The notes beneath the pieces are model-generated. The model was not told the DNA's origin. It did not search any database and saw nothing but the letters and a program-made list of their open reading frames with translations. From NCBI RefSeq assembly GCF_001512305.1, contig NZ_LNUT01000002.1, positions 64,618-128,617 on the forward strand: DNA of 64,000 nt, given 5' to 3'. Below are positions 44,584 through 58,655 of the stretch, one piece after another. Each line of letters opens with the position of its first letter. Within the stretch, counting starts at the first letter, position 1. A program made the translations under genes and the position numbers. This stretch comes from Arthrobacter sp. EPSL27. GTDB taxonomy: Bacteria > Actinomycetota > Actinomycetes > Actinomycetales > Micrococcaceae.

Positions 44584-44847
44584 CTAGCGCGAGGCGTTTT
44601 CCTGCTCGGTGGCGTTGCGGCTGGCCTGCTTGCCGGCCTCCTGCAGCGCCTGGGAGACCTTCGCGAGGGCCGCCACGTGCTGGCCGTTCCACTCGCTGCG
44701 GAACTTGTCGGCGTCCGGGCCCTTCCAGTCGGTGCCCTCGAGCACCTTGGTCAGCAGCGACTTCTGCTTGTCGATCTCGGACGAACCGGCCTGCAGCTTC
44801 GTCCCAAGAGTCTTGAGCTGAGCAATGTCTGCACCCCAAATAGCCAT
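44584..44847 (-). CDS. WXG100 (EsxA/ESAT-6-like) family protein
   Basis: An 87-residue helical-hairpin protein with the central W-x-G turn as DWKGPDADKF (residues ~40-50), flanked by two amphipathic helices, and no signal peptide. Family members are secreted as dimers by type VII systems, often next to their ATPase EccC. No type VII component is in this window, so this copy is an orphan that may use a system elsewhere. GGAGAT precedes the ATG. Confidence 0.88.
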   Translation of the reverse strand: MAIWGADIAQLKTLGTKLQAGSSEIDKQKSLLTKVLEGTDWKGPDADKFRSEWNGQHVAALAKVSQALQEAGKQASRNATEQENASR

Positions 44848-49391: not shown

Positions 49392-50540
49392 ATGGGGGGC
49401 ATGTCTACCGCAGAGAGTTACCTCCTGGCAATCGGCACCAAAAAAGGCCTCTGGCTCGCGACCAGCCCGGACCGCAAGGAATGGTCCCTTTCCGGTCCAC
49501 ATTTCCTGATGAGCGAAGTCCCCAGCATCGGCATCGACACGCGTGGGGGCCGGACGCGGATCCTGGTCGGCGTCCGTTCCGAGCACTGGGGTCCCACCGT
49601 CTTCCACTCCGATGACCTGGGCGAGACGTGGAACGAACCCGAACACGGCGCCATCCGTTTCCCCGAGGACGCCGACGCCGCGCTGGAGCGCGTCTGGCAG
49701 ATCCATCCCGACGCCGACTCCCGCCCCGGGGTGGTCTGGGCCGGGTGCGAGCCGATCTCGGTCTGGAAGTCCACCGACGGCGGCGAACACTTCGAGCTCA
49801 ACCGCGGCCTGTGGGACCACCCCCACCGCGGCGAATGGGGTGCCGGGTACGGCGGCGCCGCCGCGCACTCGATTGTCATCGACCCCTCAGGCGAGAAAGT
49901 CCACGTCGCCATGAGCACCGGCGGCGTCTACCGCTCGCTCGACGGCGGCAGCTCCTGGGAGCCCCGCAACAACGGGATCTCCGCCTACTTCATGCCCGAT
50001 CCCAACCCCGAATTCGGCCAGTGCGTGCACAAGATCGCTGCCGATGCGGCCGTGGACGGCCGGCTCTACGCGCAGAACCACCACGGCGTCTACCGCAGCG
50101 ACGACGGCGCCGAGAGCTGGGAATCGATCGCGGACGGGCTGCCGGCGGACTTCGGCTTCGTCATGCTGACCCATCCCCGCCGGGCCGGAACCGCCTGGGT
50201 CATCCCGCTCAAGGCTGACGGCGAGCGGATTCCGCCGGAGGGAAAGCTGGCCGTCCACCGCACCGACGACGCCGGGGCAACGTGGAAGCGCCTGGACGAC
50301 GGCCTCCCAGCGGCCGAGTTCAACTCGGTGCTGCGGGATGCCGCCTGCGTCGACGCGGCGGAGCCTGCCGGCGTGTACTTCGGAACCCGCGGCGGCACTG
50401 TCTACGCCAGCGCCGACGAGGGCGAACACTTCAGCGAGGTGGCCTCGCACCTGCCGGATGTGCTGTGCGTGCGCGCCTCGGCCGTGTCCGCCGCGGGCGT
50501 TGCCGGTTCCGCGAGCCTCGGCGCCGCTGTGAATGCGTAA
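49392..50540 (+). CDS. BNR/Asp-box repeat (sialidase-like) beta-propeller protein
   Basis: A 382-residue cytoplasmic beta-propeller. Six Asp-box type repeats (SxDxGxxW) are visible: SDDLGETW, STDGGEHF, SLDGGSSW, SDDGAESW, TDDAGATW and SADEGEHF. These boxes hold blade turns in sialidases, but sialidase catalytic residues were not recognised and there is no signal peptide, so hydrolase activity is unlikely. It starts LLAIGTKKGLWLATS. It is followed after 6 bp by a MoaD-like gene, a pairing that recurs in actinobacteria as far as is remembered. Confidence 0.8.
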   Translation: MGGMSTAESYLLAIGTKKGLWLATSPDRKEWSLSGPHFLMSEVPSIGIDTRGGRTRILVGVRSEHWGPTVFHSDDLGETWNEPEHGAIRFPEDADAALERVWQIHPDADSRPGVVWAGCEPISVWKSTDGGEHFELNRGLWDHPHRGEWGAGYGGAAAHSIVIDPSGEKVHVAMSTGGVYRSLDGGSSWEPRNNGISAYFMPDPNPEFGQCVHKIAADAAVDGRLYAQNHHGVYRSDDGAESWESIADGLPADFGFVMLTHPRRAGTAWVIPLKADGERIPPEGKLAVHRTDDAGATWKRLDDGLPAAEFNSVLRDAACVDAAEPAGVYFGTRGGTVYASADEGEHFSEVASHLPDVLCVRASAVSAAGVAGSASLGAAVNA

Positions 50541-50546
50541 GGTCCC

Positions 50547-50834
50547 ATGGCCGGAATCAGTGTGATGCTGCCCAGTGTCCTCCAGCCGCTCGCCGGCGGG
50601 CAGTCCTTGCTGACTGCGCCCGCGGAGACGGCGGTGACGGTGGAAGGAGTGCTGGACGCGGTGACCGGGGAGTACCCGGCCCTGTCGAGGCGGTTACGGG
50701 ACGAGACCGGGGCTGTCCGACGTTACGTGAATATATACGTCAACGGGAATGAGATCCGGCGTCTTCAAGGCCTGGCCACCGAGGTAGCCCCCGGCGGGGA
50801 GGTCCTGATCATCCAGTCCGTCGCGGGAGGCTAG
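50547..50834 (+). CDS. MoaD/ThiS family ubiquitin-like protein
   Basis: A 95-residue beta-grasp protein ending in the diglycine VAGG, the site where MoaD/ThiS proteins are adenylated and carry sulfur or are attached to targets. The NIYVNGNEIRRLQGLATEV stretch and VLIIQSVAGG are typical. No molybdopterin or thiamine genes are near. It sits directly after the BNR-propeller gene, so the two probably work together in an undescribed sulfur-transfer or conjugation process. Confidence 0.85.
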   Translation: MAGISVMLPSVLQPLAGGQSLLTAPAETAVTVEGVLDAVTGEYPALSRRLRDETGAVRRYVNIYVNGNEIRRLQGLATEVAPGGEVLIIQSVAGG

Positions 50835-51227: not shown

Positions 51228-52922
51228 TCAGGGGATATGGCGCTGGCCCGGCCGCTGGACCCGGAACCAGCGGTGGCCGTAGCGGTCCAGCTCCAGTTCG
51301 AACCCTCCGTCCTCTGCCAGTGCCACATCCTCACCGTCCAGCAGGTCCCGCAGGTAAGCCCCCTCAAACCCGGATTCCGGGTCCCCGGCCGCGGCCAGGC
51401 TGGCAACCACAGAGGCCGGCTCGGCCCCGAAATTGTGGGCCAGGACCACCGTGGAGCCTTCCCAGGTGCACCGGTGCAGGAGCACCTTCGCGTCCGGTTG
51501 CTTGATCAGCTCAAAGTCGCCCCAGCCCAGTTCTGGACTCTCCCGGTAACGCTGGATCAAGGTGGCCATGAAGTTCCACAACGACGCCGGATCCCTCTTC
51601 GCCGCTGCCGCGTTGACGTTTTTCGGCCCGAAGTATCCGTCCACGACCTGCGCCACCAGGTCTTTCGCGGGAGCCGTGGAGAACCCGCCGTTGTCGCCGT
51701 CGGTCCACTGCATCGGGGACCGCACAGCCGAGCGGCCCTTCGCCGACAGGTCCTCGCCCATGCCGATTTCCTCGCCATAGAACAGCACGGGGGTCCCGGG
51801 CAGGGCGAACATCAGCGAGTAGACCATCCGGATCCGGGCGGGGTCGCCCTTGAGCATGGTGGGCAGCCGGCGGCGCAGGCCGCGGCCGTACATCTGCATG
51901 TCCTCATCCGGGCCGAACGCCGCAAAGACCTCCTCGCGCTCACTGTCGCTGAGCTTGTCGAGGGTCAGCTCGTCGTGGTTCCGGACAAACATGGCCCACT
52001 GGTTGTCCGGGTGGATCTTCGGCCGCGAGGCCAGCGATTTTGCCAGCGGCCGGGCTTCCTCGCGGGCCAGGGACAGGTACAGGTTCTGCATGGACAGGAA
52101 ATCGAACTGCATGTTCAGCTCGTTTCCCGCCGCCCCGCCGAAGTACTTCAGCTGGTCCTTGTAGGGGACATTGACCTCGCCCAGGAGCATCCCGCTGCCG
52201 TTGCGGCGGTTGAGGAAACTGCGGAGCGCGCTGAGGTAGTCGTGCGGGTCGACCGTTGCCGAATCTTCCTTTGACGTGCCCTGCAGCTCAAGGAAGAACG
52301 GGACGGCATCCAGCCGGAAGCCGTCCAGACCCAGCTGCAGCCAGAACCCCATGGACTTGGCGATCTCATCCCGCACCCGCGGGTTGGCGACGTTCAGGTC
52401 CGGCTGGTGCTTCGCGAACATGTGCAGGTACCACTCACCGGTGGCCTTGTCCTGGGTCCAGATGGACGTCTCCTCGCCGGGAAACACCACCTGGTCCGAG
52501 GTGTCCGGGGGTGTCTCCTTGCGCCAGACGTAGTAGTCGCGGAACGGGTTGTCCACCGATTTGCGGGACTCCACGAACCAGGGGTGCTTGTCCGAGGTGT
52601 GGTTAAGGACGAAGTCCGCGATCACGCGCATGCCCCGGTCCTTGGCGGTCCGGATGAACTCCACCACGTCGCCCAGGTTCCCCAGCCGCGGGTCCACGCT
52701 GTAGAGATCCGTGACGTCGTAGCCGTCGTCCTTGTCCGGGGTGGGGTAGAACGGCATCAGCCAGATGCACGTCACACCCAGGGCCGCGAGGTAGTCCACG
52801 CGCTGGATCAGGCCGCCGAAGTCCCCGGTGCCGTCGCCGTCGTCGTCGAAGAACGTTTCCGGGTCCAGGCAGTAGATGACGGCGTTCTTCCACCAGAGGT
52901 CAGAGGTCTCGGCAATCCTCAC
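51228..52922 (-). CDS. GH13 alpha-amylase family enzyme, trehalose synthase-like
   Basis: A 564-residue GH13 enzyme. VIYCLDPETFFDDDGDGTGDF, then region I DFVLNHTSDKHPWF, region II GLDGFRLDAVPF (nucleophile Asp), region III LLGEVNVP (acid/base Glu) and region IV FVRNHDEL. The overall pattern resembles trehalose-synthase-type GH13 (glucoside isomerisation or hydrolysis), but no pep2/treS maltokinase fusion is present. GTG 52922 overlaps the LLM gene stop by 4 nt; the longer frame to 53792 overlaps that gene and is rejected. Confidence 0.87.
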   Translation of the reverse strand: MRIAETSDLWWKNAVIYCLDPETFFDDDGDGTGDFGGLIQRVDYLAALGVTCIWLMPFYPTPDKDDGYDVTDLYSVDPRLGNLGDVVEFIRTAKDRGMRVIADFVLNHTSDKHPWFVESRKSVDNPFRDYYVWRKETPPDTSDQVVFPGEETSIWTQDKATGEWYLHMFAKHQPDLNVANPRVRDEIAKSMGFWLQLGLDGFRLDAVPFFLELQGTSKEDSATVDPHDYLSALRSFLNRRNGSGMLLGEVNVPYKDQLKYFGGAAGNELNMQFDFLSMQNLYLSLAREEARPLAKSLASRPKIHPDNQWAMFVRNHDELTLDKLSDSEREEVFAAFGPDEDMQMYGRGLRRRLPTMLKGDPARIRMVYSLMFALPGTPVLFYGEEIGMGEDLSAKGRSAVRSPMQWTDGDNGGFSTAPAKDLVAQVVDGYFGPKNVNAAAAKRDPASLWNFMATLIQRYRESPELGWGDFELIKQPDAKVLLHRCTWEGSTVVLAHNFGAEPASVVASLAAAGDPESGFEGAYLRDLLDGEDVALAEDGGFELELDRYGHRWFRVQRPGQRHIP

Positions 52923-53914
52923 AGGGCTGCCGCCCGGTCCCGGCGCGGAGTTCCGGACCCGCGGAGCTGGGGCAGCACGTGTTCGGCGAAGGCCCGGATG
53001 AACGGCGCCTGTTCCTGGCCGACGAAGTGCAGGTACAGCTCGTCGAAGCCGAGATCGAGATATTCGGCGAGCCACTGGGCGTGCTGTCCGGTGTCGGCGG
53101 AGATGTTCACGACGTTCCGCACCTGGTCCTCGCCGACGTCGGCGCTGACGACGTCGAAGTGTCCCGCCGTCGGCAGGTCCCACGGGACCGGCGGGGCAAA
53201 GACGTTGCTGCGCCATTGGTCCATGGCCACCGCCACGGCTTCCCGCTCCGTGGGCGCCCAGGACAGGTGGACCTGCAGCACGGCATTTCCCTTGCCGCCG
53301 GCGTCGCGGTAGGCGGCGAGCATGTCCTTCAGCTTGGCGTGCGGCTGGTTCACGGTGACCAGGCCGTCCGCCCACGCGGCCCCGCGGCGGGCCGTCTCCA
53401 CGCTGATGGCCGGGGCGATCAGCGGCGGCTTGATCTCCGGAACGTCCCAGATCCGGGCCTGCTGGACGGTGACCAGGCCGTCCCGGGTGACCTCCTTGCC
53501 GTCGTGGAGGTCCCGGATGATCCGGACCGCTTCCTCGAGGCGCTGCTGGCGGGTGGCCTTGTCCGGCCAGGCCTGGCCGGTGACGTGCTCGTTCATGTAT
53601 TCGCCGCTGCCCGGCGCCATCCAGAAGCGGCCGGGAAACATGTCCGCCAGCGTGGCCGACGCATGCGCGATGATGGCGGGGTGGTAGCGCTGGCCCGGTG
53701 CCGTCACGGTGCCGAAGCGCAGCCCGGTGGTGGCCAGGGCCGCCCCCAGCCACGACCAGGCGAATCCGGAATGCCCTTGCCGGGCGGACCACGGCTCAAT
53801 GTGGTCCGAGCACATGGCGGCATCGAAGCCCGCCTGCTCCGCCAGCTGGACGTCCTTCAGGAGCTGGCCGGGACTGATCTGTTCATGGGATGCGTGGAAA
53901 CCGAGGGTAGCCAT
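52919..53914 (-). CDS. Luciferase-like (LLM class) flavin-dependent oxidoreductase, TIGR03885-like
   Basis: A 331-residue TIM-barrel flavoprotein with luciferase-family features (LGFHASHEQISPGQLL, AAMCSDHIEPW, GQRYHPAIIAHASATLADMFPGRF in pieces, PPLIAPAISVETARR). It resembles the TIGR03885 non-F420 flavin group, which is often linked to glycosidase genes. It is coupled to the GH13 gene by a GTGA overlap. The reaction is unknown. TAAAGA ends 6 nt before the ATG, a near-match to the leaderless pattern. Confidence 0.82.
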   Translation of the reverse strand: MATLGFHASHEQISPGQLLKDVQLAEQAGFDAAMCSDHIEPWSARQGHSGFAWSWLGAALATTGLRFGTVTAPGQRYHPAIIAHASATLADMFPGRFWMAPGSGEYMNEHVTGQAWPDKATRQQRLEEAVRIIRDLHDGKEVTRDGLVTVQQARIWDVPEIKPPLIAPAISVETARRGAAWADGLVTVNQPHAKLKDMLAAYRDAGGKGNAVLQVHLSWAPTEREAVAVAMDQWRSNVFAPPVPWDLPTAGHFDVVSADVGEDQVRNVVNISADTGQHAQWLAEYLDLGFDELYLHFVGQEQAPFIRAFAEHVLPQLRGSGTPRRDRAAAL

Positions 53915-57773: not shown

Positions 57774-58655
57774 ATGAGCAACCGAGCAGAGTCCTTCCTC
57801 GTGGGCCTGATAGGCGATGGCGTGATGCCGTCCCTCACGCCCCCCATGCATGAACGCGAAGGTGATGTGCAGGGCCTCCGGTACCTCTACCGCCCCATCG
57901 ACCTCACCGAGCTGGGGCTTTCCGGCCGGAGCGTCGGGGAGCTCCTGACGGGCGCCTACCGCCTGGGCTTCAACGGGCTGAACATCACGCATCCGTGCAA
58001 GCAGCTGGTCCTGGAACACCTCGACGAGGTCACCCCGGACGCCCGGCGCCTCGGAGCCGTCAACACGGTGACCATCCGGGACGGCCGCTTCATCGGCCAC
58101 AACACCGACTTCTCCGGGTTCGCCGCGGCGCTGGCCGCCGGCCTGCCGGGAGCCAAGCTGCACCGCGTGGTGCAGCTGGGGGCCGGGGGTGCCGGCTCCG
58201 CCGTCGCCTACGCCCTGCTCACCGCCGGAGTCCGCGAACTGGACCTGGTGGACACCGACCCTGCCCGCTGCGCGGCGCGCGCCGCCGAACTGGCCGGCTT
58301 CTTCCCGGACCAGCTGGTCACCGCGCGGACGACGGCGGAGCTGCCGCAGCTGATGCCGATGGCCGACGGCCTCGTGCACTGCACGCCGGTGGGCATGGCC
58401 GCCCACCCCGGCGTCCCGCTGGACATGTCCCTTGTGTCCGCACGCCACTGGGTCGCTGACATCGTGTACCGGCCGATCGAGACCGAGCTGGTCCGCGAAG
58501 CCCGGGCCAAGGGCTGCGACGTGCTCGACGGCGGCCGCATGGCCGTGGGGCAGGCCGCTGACGCCTTCCGGATTTTCACCGGCCGCGAGGCCGACGCGGA
58601 CCGGATGCGCGCCCACTTCCTGGAGCTCGTCGCCGCCGAAGAGGTGGCCGCCTGA
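57774..58655 (+). CDS. Quinate/shikimate dehydrogenase (AroE-like)
   Basis: A 293-residue oxidoreductase. The substrate domain has GLIGDGVMPSLTPPMHE and the catalytic Lys76 in NITHPCKQ plus Asp112 in NTDFSGF. The NAD(P) domain has the Rossmann motif LGAGGAGSAV. The THPCK variant and context point to the catabolic quinate/shikimate dehydrogenases of actinobacteria rather than biosynthetic AroE. It oxidises quinate or shikimate towards 3-dehydroshikimate. AAAGGAG fixes ATG 57774. Its stop overlaps the next gene by 1 nt (TGATG). Confidence 0.87.
   Translation: MSNRAESFLVGLIGDGVMPSLTPPMHEREGDVQGLRYLYRPIDLTELGLSGRSVGELLTGAYRLGFNGLNITHPCKQLVLEHLDEVTPDARRLGAVNTVTIRDGRFIGHNTDFSGFAAALAAGLPGAKLHRVVQLGAGGAGSAVAYALLTAGVRELDLVDTDPARCAARAAELAGFFPDQLVTARTTAELPQLMPMADGLVHCTPVGMAAHPGVPLDMSLVSARHWVADIVYRPIETELVREARAKGCDVLDGGRMAVGQAADAFRIFTGREADADRMRAHFLELVAAEEVAA

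Follow-up and report, generated by a model that had tools for sequence, protein, structure and literature searches.

An Asp-box beta-propeller gene and its MoaD-like neighbour: a candidate stand-alone sulfur-carrier/client module

To our knowledge, few clients of bacterial sulfur carriers are known. The 64,000-nucleotide stretch of Arthrobacter DNA analysed here (the window) holds a gene for a beta-propeller protein and, 6 bp downstream, a gene for a small MoaD/ThiS-like protein that ends in two glycines. What does a propeller have to do with a putative sulfur carrier? The first-pass annotation of this DNA had pointed out the pair, its 6-bp spacing, the six Asp-boxes and the Gly-Gly end, and we find each of these in place on the plus strand. 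Here, we ask how widely the two genes stay together, and which relationship between their products best explains it.

The propeller gene (49392-50540, plus strand) encodes 382 amino acids from its first ATG, or 379 if translation begins at a second in-frame ATG (49401); in the residue numbers used here, the Ser encoded at 49404 is residue 1. The protein matches the Pfam families Sortilin-Vps10 (35 bits, cut-off 33) and BNR (32.8 bits, cut-off 27). A relaxed Asp-box pattern finds six Asp-boxes, all on the plus strand: SDDLGETW (49608-49631), STDGGEHF (49770-49793), SLDGGSSW (49935-49958), SDDGAESW (50097-50120), TDDAGATW (50262-50285) and SADEGEHF (50409-50432). The sole solved relative by sequence at E <= 0.1 is 3b7f (Reut_B4987, 'glycosyl hydrolase, BNR repeat'; E 7e-75), which belongs to the same family and fold, is 40% identical and matches over its full length in both sequence and structure. 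The predicted structure of the window protein superposes on it with a VIA Z of 50.3 and an rmsd of 1.8 A over 353 residues, and, like 3b7f, it probably consists of seven blades. In the available text of PMC2716378, the function of 3b7f (released 2007) is listed as not known. In Cupriavidus metallidurans the gene of the relative is directly preceded by one for a MoaD-like protein, and our search of the open-access literature found no paper on a carrier partner of 3b7f.

Relatives of the propeller are annotated 'exo-alpha-sialidase' or 'sialidase family protein', and the Asp-box propeller fold is shared with GH33 sialidases and GH74 xyloglucanases. The catalytic set of GH33 sialidases comprises an arginine triad, a Tyr/Glu pair and an acid Asp. 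In the Pfam and NCBIfam scans, the models for sialidases and GH74 all stay below their cut-offs on the propeller, and every NCBIfam match of both the propeller and the small protein lies under cut-off. The best GH74 structure gives a VIA Z of 28.1 against the propeller, and propellers of the 6-phosphogluconolactonase type score about equally. Moreover, GH74 xyloglucanases consist of two tandem propellers (PMC2716378, available text), whereas the window protein is a single propeller of ~360 residues.

The second gene (50547-50834, plus strand) follows after a gap at 50541-50546, and the two genes share one reading frame across it. It encodes 95 amino acids ending in SVAGG, with the bare Gly94-Gly95 pair encoded at 50826-50831. 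By its match to Pfam ThiS (PF02597; 39.1 bits, cut-off 22.5, E 1.1e-9) and its C-terminal Gly-Gly, the protein is, at the level of sequence, a member of the MoaD/ThiS superfamily. Its best NCBIfam match is SAMP1 (E 2.5e-14), at 53.6 bits under a cut-off of 60. The closest solved relative is CysO of Mycobacterium tuberculosis (3dwg/3dwm, E 1.8e-14), of similar length (93 versus 95 residues) and with the same Val-Ala-Gly-Gly end. CysO is the carrier of the CysO-CysM-Mec cysteine pathway, whereas the window carrier is not encoded with cysM or mec: a scan of seven proteins from this part of the window shows neither CysM nor Mec/JAB, and the genome as a whole gives no Prok-JAB match. In a carrier tree of 66 rows (45 of them propeller-linked) and 88 columns, CysO forms one group (96/82) with the window carrier outside it. 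Propeller-linked rows stand apart, by one change, from CysO and from a third group of 15 rows, a split with weak support (35/46). We thus reject identity with CysO because of the gene neighbourhood, to which the tree adds weakly. Four of the 15 rows in the third group were checked and all lie beside threonine synthase; carriers of this group (L176, L181, L185, L194) end in Gly-Gly or Gly-Gly-Cys, and their genes directly follow that of threonine synthase.

The carrier profile has exactly one match per genome in 41 of 41 genomes of the window's genus. As a marker of the gene pair it is unspecific: it matches 189 of 296 actinobacterial genomes, CysO and thrC-type carriers among them, and we therefore counted linkage from the propeller side. 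Among close relatives (the best 80 of 451 propeller relatives, all Arthrobacter, Paenarthrobacter or Pseudarthrobacter), a MoaD-like gene lies downstream of the propeller in 80 of 80 loci. The carrier match starts between 8 bases before and 117 after the propeller stop (<=60 in 77 of 80), and all 80 carriers, again from the best 80 of 451, end in VAGG. At the Arthrobacter Hiyo4 locus (L064:7136-7410) the carrier gene has an apparent frameshift, with two tblastn pieces 2 bases apart.

Across the phylum, 296 actinobacterial genomes were sampled and propellers called at E <= 1e-30, which gave 75 places in 74 genomes, all of them read. The carrier lies downstream at 40, upstream at 12 and fused in frame at 7 (seven genomes from three families), with none found at 16; that is, it is adjacent or fused at 59 of 75 places. 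Linkage limited to this one strain, which the first-pass annotation had named as the outcome that would speak against a functional pair, is clearly not what the genomes show. One genome (G114) has two propeller copies (L144, L202), each with its own downstream carrier. On the best quick tree of 85 propellers, parsimony gives five changes of arrangement among linked copies, or four for fused versus upstream alone; well-supported branches by themselves force two changes for the downstream, three for the upstream and two for the fused arrangement. With both gene orders and fusions arising through several changes, the two genes have stayed together through several rearrangements. In addition, no Pfam family occurs in more than two of the 63 same-strand flanking genes (within ~250 bases; 52 of 70 loci), and the conserved module thus seems to consist of these two genes alone.

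Beyond Actinobacteria the search covered plasmid records, with a carrier query from Pseudomonas aeruginosa. Twelve records matched, ten of them with at least 80% coverage. In all ten, which come from Pseudomonas, Mitsuaria, Burkholderia, Paraburkholderia and Cupriavidus, the carrier gene immediately precedes that of the propeller and shares its strand. The remaining two are from Arthrobacter (carrier downstream) and Piscinibacter (58% coverage, no propeller match). A propeller query gave a full-length match in 18 of 25 records, namely the same ten proteobacterial ones together with Arthrobacter, Nonomuraea (carrier downstream), Streptomyces, three Rhodobacterales, Roseomonas and Persicobacter. 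The module is found in actinobacteria from soil, in further classes of that phylum, in Burkholderiales and on a plasmid of Pseudomonas aeruginosa. A candidate propeller gene of P. aeruginosa, PA1356, is mentioned in the available text of a transcriptome paper (PMC11538994).

We propose, with a probability of roughly 0.45, that this gene pair makes up a stand-alone sulfur-carrier/client module, with the propeller as client of a carrier activated by an E1. A MoeZ-like E1-rhodanese would adenylate and thiocarboxylate the MoaD-like protein at its C-terminal glycine. With the thiocarboxylate in place, the tail would then dock in the central site of the propeller, where a set of His, Lys, Gln and Arg residues would receive the Gly-Gly. 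The propeller would play the part that MoaE has for MoaD, binding an acceptor and passing the sulfur (or the activated tail) on to it, and where the carrier is fused or extended past Gly-Gly, a Mec-like protease of the JAB type would first free the Gly-Gly, as in MoaX. The likeness to MoaD-MoaE lies in a carrier and a client that come as two proteins, or (MoaX) fused with Gly-Gly at the junction; the difference is that the client here is a beta-propeller and not MoaE. Support for the client reading comes from linkage in two phyla, the fusions and a structural model of one, the retained Gly-Gly, an E1 in every genome scanned, a conserved site in the propeller, the weakly supported split in the carrier tree, and the precedents of MoaX and of peptide docking. 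Against it stand carrier-less loci that keep the invariant residues, the Nonomuraea carrier without Gly-Gly, and the Piscinibacter record with a partial carrier and no propeller. The first-pass annotation had suggested that the propeller is a target or scaffold for the small protein. Its linkage holds as a conserved module; the propeller may be a target, a scaffold or a catalytic partner, and a sulfur-receiving client fits better than a conjugation target, given the MoaD-MoaE-like fusions, the invariant His/Lys/Gln/Arg residues and the lack of a recurring ligase gene.

A candidate activating enzyme is encoded in the genome. The same annotation had imagined a distant enzyme of the MoeB type, and one full-length ThiF-type E1 is present, far off on another contig (C8; the window is on C2). 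This is the only full-length ThiF match of the genome (261 bits); by reading of translations, its C-terminal part looks like a rhodanese domain and its gene appears to lie near a thi operon. A second ThiF match (28.6 bits) is just over cut-off and covers half the domain, and a scrap inside the window near 58161 scores 24.9 bits, under the cut-off of 28.1. The ThiS-family search found three genes in the genome, the window carrier and two on other contigs; of these two, the gene on C8 reads as the ThiS of a thi operon and the other lies on C4; thiamine and molybdopterin context was judged from the genome-wide search for the ThiS and ThiF families. A strong ThiF match occurs in 42 of 42 propeller genomes scanned (this one and 41 others, of 74), and the full-length E1 may serve the window carrier.

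The propeller itself carries a set of conserved residues that could form the receiving site. An alignment of 79 rows (60 carrier-linked, 19 unlinked) includes the window protein twice, as itself and as L097, and covers neither L096, L141 and L164, which were left out, nor L198-L202. Beyond the Asp and Trp of the Asp-boxes, conservation of polar residues reaches 95% of rows or more at Thr12, Lys14 (49443-49445; 99%), Trp98, Trp145, His155 (49866-49868; 99%), Ser171, His209 (50028-50030; invariant), Gln224 and His226 in a Gln224-x-His226 motif (50073-50081; both invariant), Arg231 and Arg311 (50334-50336; invariant), all encoded on the plus strand. Lys14, the three histidines, Gln224 and Arg311 align with identical residues in 3b7f. 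According to the secondary-structure prediction, the His and Gln residues sit where strands begin and in turns that face each other, which suggests that they may share one pocket near the propeller axis. Residues conserved in linked copies alone were considered as a signal of a docking site; three positions passed (60 linked versus 19 unlinked rows), none of them convincing.

How a Gly-Gly tail might dock on a propeller has a precedent. Foldseek matches include Ycf48 with the D1 peptide (5ojr, E 1.7e-8) and sortilin with neurotensin (3f6k, E 4.2e-8), which share the Asp-box propeller fold but differ in their biology and are 14% identical over the aligned columns. Both bind the C-terminal ends of their peptides, and by analogy these complexes may serve as a model for docking of the carrier tail. 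A more specific form of the client reading, which we hold as tentative and somewhat doubtful, is that the propeller is a new class of client: an enzyme whose His/Lys/Arg site (perhaps a metal-binding site of three histidines) takes the Gly-Gly thiocarboxylate, sometimes from a carrier-propeller precursor cut by a JAB protease.

Does the module depend on the two glycines at all? One alternative is that the propeller has in the small protein a subunit with a structural or regulatory role, the sulfur chemistry being lost or irrelevant. Fused carriers, at 7 of 75 places, have no free C-terminus; 10 of the 52 unfused linked carriers have 1-25 residues after Gly-Gly; and the Nonomuraea carrier beside its propeller (L087:5069-5380) ends in PALA, without Gly-Gly, and so offers a natural experiment on the need for the glycines. 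On the other hand, Gly-Gly is retained at 58 of 58 readable linked places of the sample, fusions included (the 59th, L130, is cut by a contig end), which is hard to explain if the glycines are unused. Among these 58 carriers, 41 have a bare end (one of them Gly-Gly-Gly), the 10 just mentioned are extended, and all 7 fusions have Gly-Gly at the junction. Processing of a fusion also has a precedent in MoaX, the MoaD-MoaE fusion, which is cut after Gly-Gly and needs the cut for its function (PMC4326299, available text). Models of the read-through window pair and of a natural fusion both show confident domains with a floppy linker or tail. In the natural fusion, pLDDT below 50 is limited to residues 83-86, Ile-Ser-Gly-Gly itself, and in the read-through model to the last three residues, Ala-Gly-Gly; the models thus predict a flexible, accessible tail for fused carriers too. 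We regard a role independent of the glycines as rather unlikely.

Another possibility is tagging in the manner of ubiquitin, in which the C-terminal glycine of the carrier is joined to lysines of other proteins and the propeller is the main target or an adaptor that picks targets (SAMP- or Urm1-like). The best NCBIfam match of the carrier is after all SAMP1, though below cut-off, and the fusions with Gly-Gly at the junction resemble ubiquitin precursors. The propeller also has one near-invariant lysine, Lys14, the only lysine kept in more than 70% of the 79 aligned propellers. Yet Lys14 is kept alongside the conserved His, Gln and Arg residues, which would fit a functional site better than a surface acceptor, and the same-strand neighbours described above, with no family in more than 2 of 63, leave no linked ligase. 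Proteases of the JAB family speak against tagging as well: of the 41 genomes from the window's genus, 35 show no match (the other six are over cut-off, at 35-57 bits), though all 41 have a carrier match. We consider tagging improbable.

The same protease family was considered as a necessary partner of the client module and rejected. A scan of 42 propeller genomes, with the extended-carrier genomes G044 and G094 outside it, found a Prok-JAB match in all 15 with fused (7) or extended (8) carriers. The match is present in 39 of the 42, so its association with such carriers proves nothing, and genomes with and without a fusion cannot be told apart by it. It is absent from the window genome (G000), G008 and G082; all three have carriers with bare Gly-Gly, and free carriers thus need no JAB protease. 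In one fusion-bearing genome, a CysO-type carrier (L174:1522-1782) beside E1, CysM and JAB genes ends in GGAA, so that trimming would be needed to expose its Gly-Gly.

The carrier-less loci bring a third alternative to the fore: the propeller could be an independent enzyme that uses any carrier (CysO, the thrC-linked MoaD or its own), the linked one being a convenience and not a requirement. The 16 carrier-less places of the sample, 14 of which were read with 1.5 kb per side, comprise 11 in one family with large genomes (f5), four in another (f45) and one (L164) at a contig end. Family f5 is probably Streptomyces, and the named Streptomyces plasmid (L086) likewise has no adjacent carrier. Among the plasmid records, no carrier was found beside the propeller in the one Streptomyces locus and the three Rhodobacterales loci, nor adjacent to the remote Roseomonas relative. 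As judged from sequence, then, the partnership is not obligatory everywhere, since some lineages (probably Streptomyces, and Rhodobacterales) do without an adjacent carrier and one carrier does without Gly-Gly. The conserved polar residues of the propeller are retained in carrier-less lineages as well, the invariant ones included in f5, f45 and the three Rhodobacterales plasmids, which speaks for this alternative. Sulfur carriers are shared between pathways in 2-thiosugar biosynthesis, so there is a parallel for such use. One carrier-less genome (G162) has two carrier-profile matches, one of thrC type and one a CysO copy beside JAB and CysM genes; no propeller-type carrier was seen in it among the 18 of 196 first-look candidates scored. 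What weighs against free choice of carrier is that, outside f5 and f45, 59 of the 60 places sampled have a carrier next to the propeller, and the 60th is cut by a contig end. We consider this alternative, too, to have a low probability.

Finally, mere neighbourhood, that is, unrelated housekeeping genes sharing an operon by chance, could persist within one genus through passive conservation of operon partners, but it is very hard to reconcile with both gene orders, fusions, two phyla and no other recurring same-strand neighbour, and we give it almost no weight.

A description of the propeller-carrier pairing was not found in the open-access literature, a body of work outside which most subscription papers lie. 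In the available text of Iyer 2006 (PMC1779556), the terms sialidase, BNR, propeller, glycosyl hydrolase, glucanase and WD40 are all absent. The available text of Burroughs 2007 (PMC1949818) names a propeller in a figure legend only, fused to some beta-grasp domain of unspecified kind. If the client reading is true, it adds a carrier client whose fold is not connected with sulfur carriers in any paper that the search brought up. It would also give a likely partner, and hence a testable function, to the 3b7f family, whose members carry sialidase labels. The natural fusions with an internal Gly-Gly would offer a clean test of bacterial ubiquitin-like precursor processing beyond MoaX.

Other observations concern the surroundings of the module. 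In Rhodobacter (L088:1592-5119), egtB-egtD adjoin the propeller gene divergently, and in one actinobacterium (L153:2531-6092) the order egtB-egtD-carrier-propeller lies on one strand; egt genes beside the module are rare in the sample, yet occur in two phyla. EgtD is found in 33 of 74 propeller genomes versus 57 of 222 others, and a link of the module to ergothioneine was set aside, as only 1 of the 33 is linked to it. Within the window, a small ORF on the minus strand (44584-44847) resembles, by eye, a WXG100 (ESAT-6-like) protein, and a trehalose-synthase-like alpha-amylase (TIGR02456, below cut-off) lies beside a TIGR03885 luciferase-like oxidoreductase at 51231-53914, also on the minus strand.
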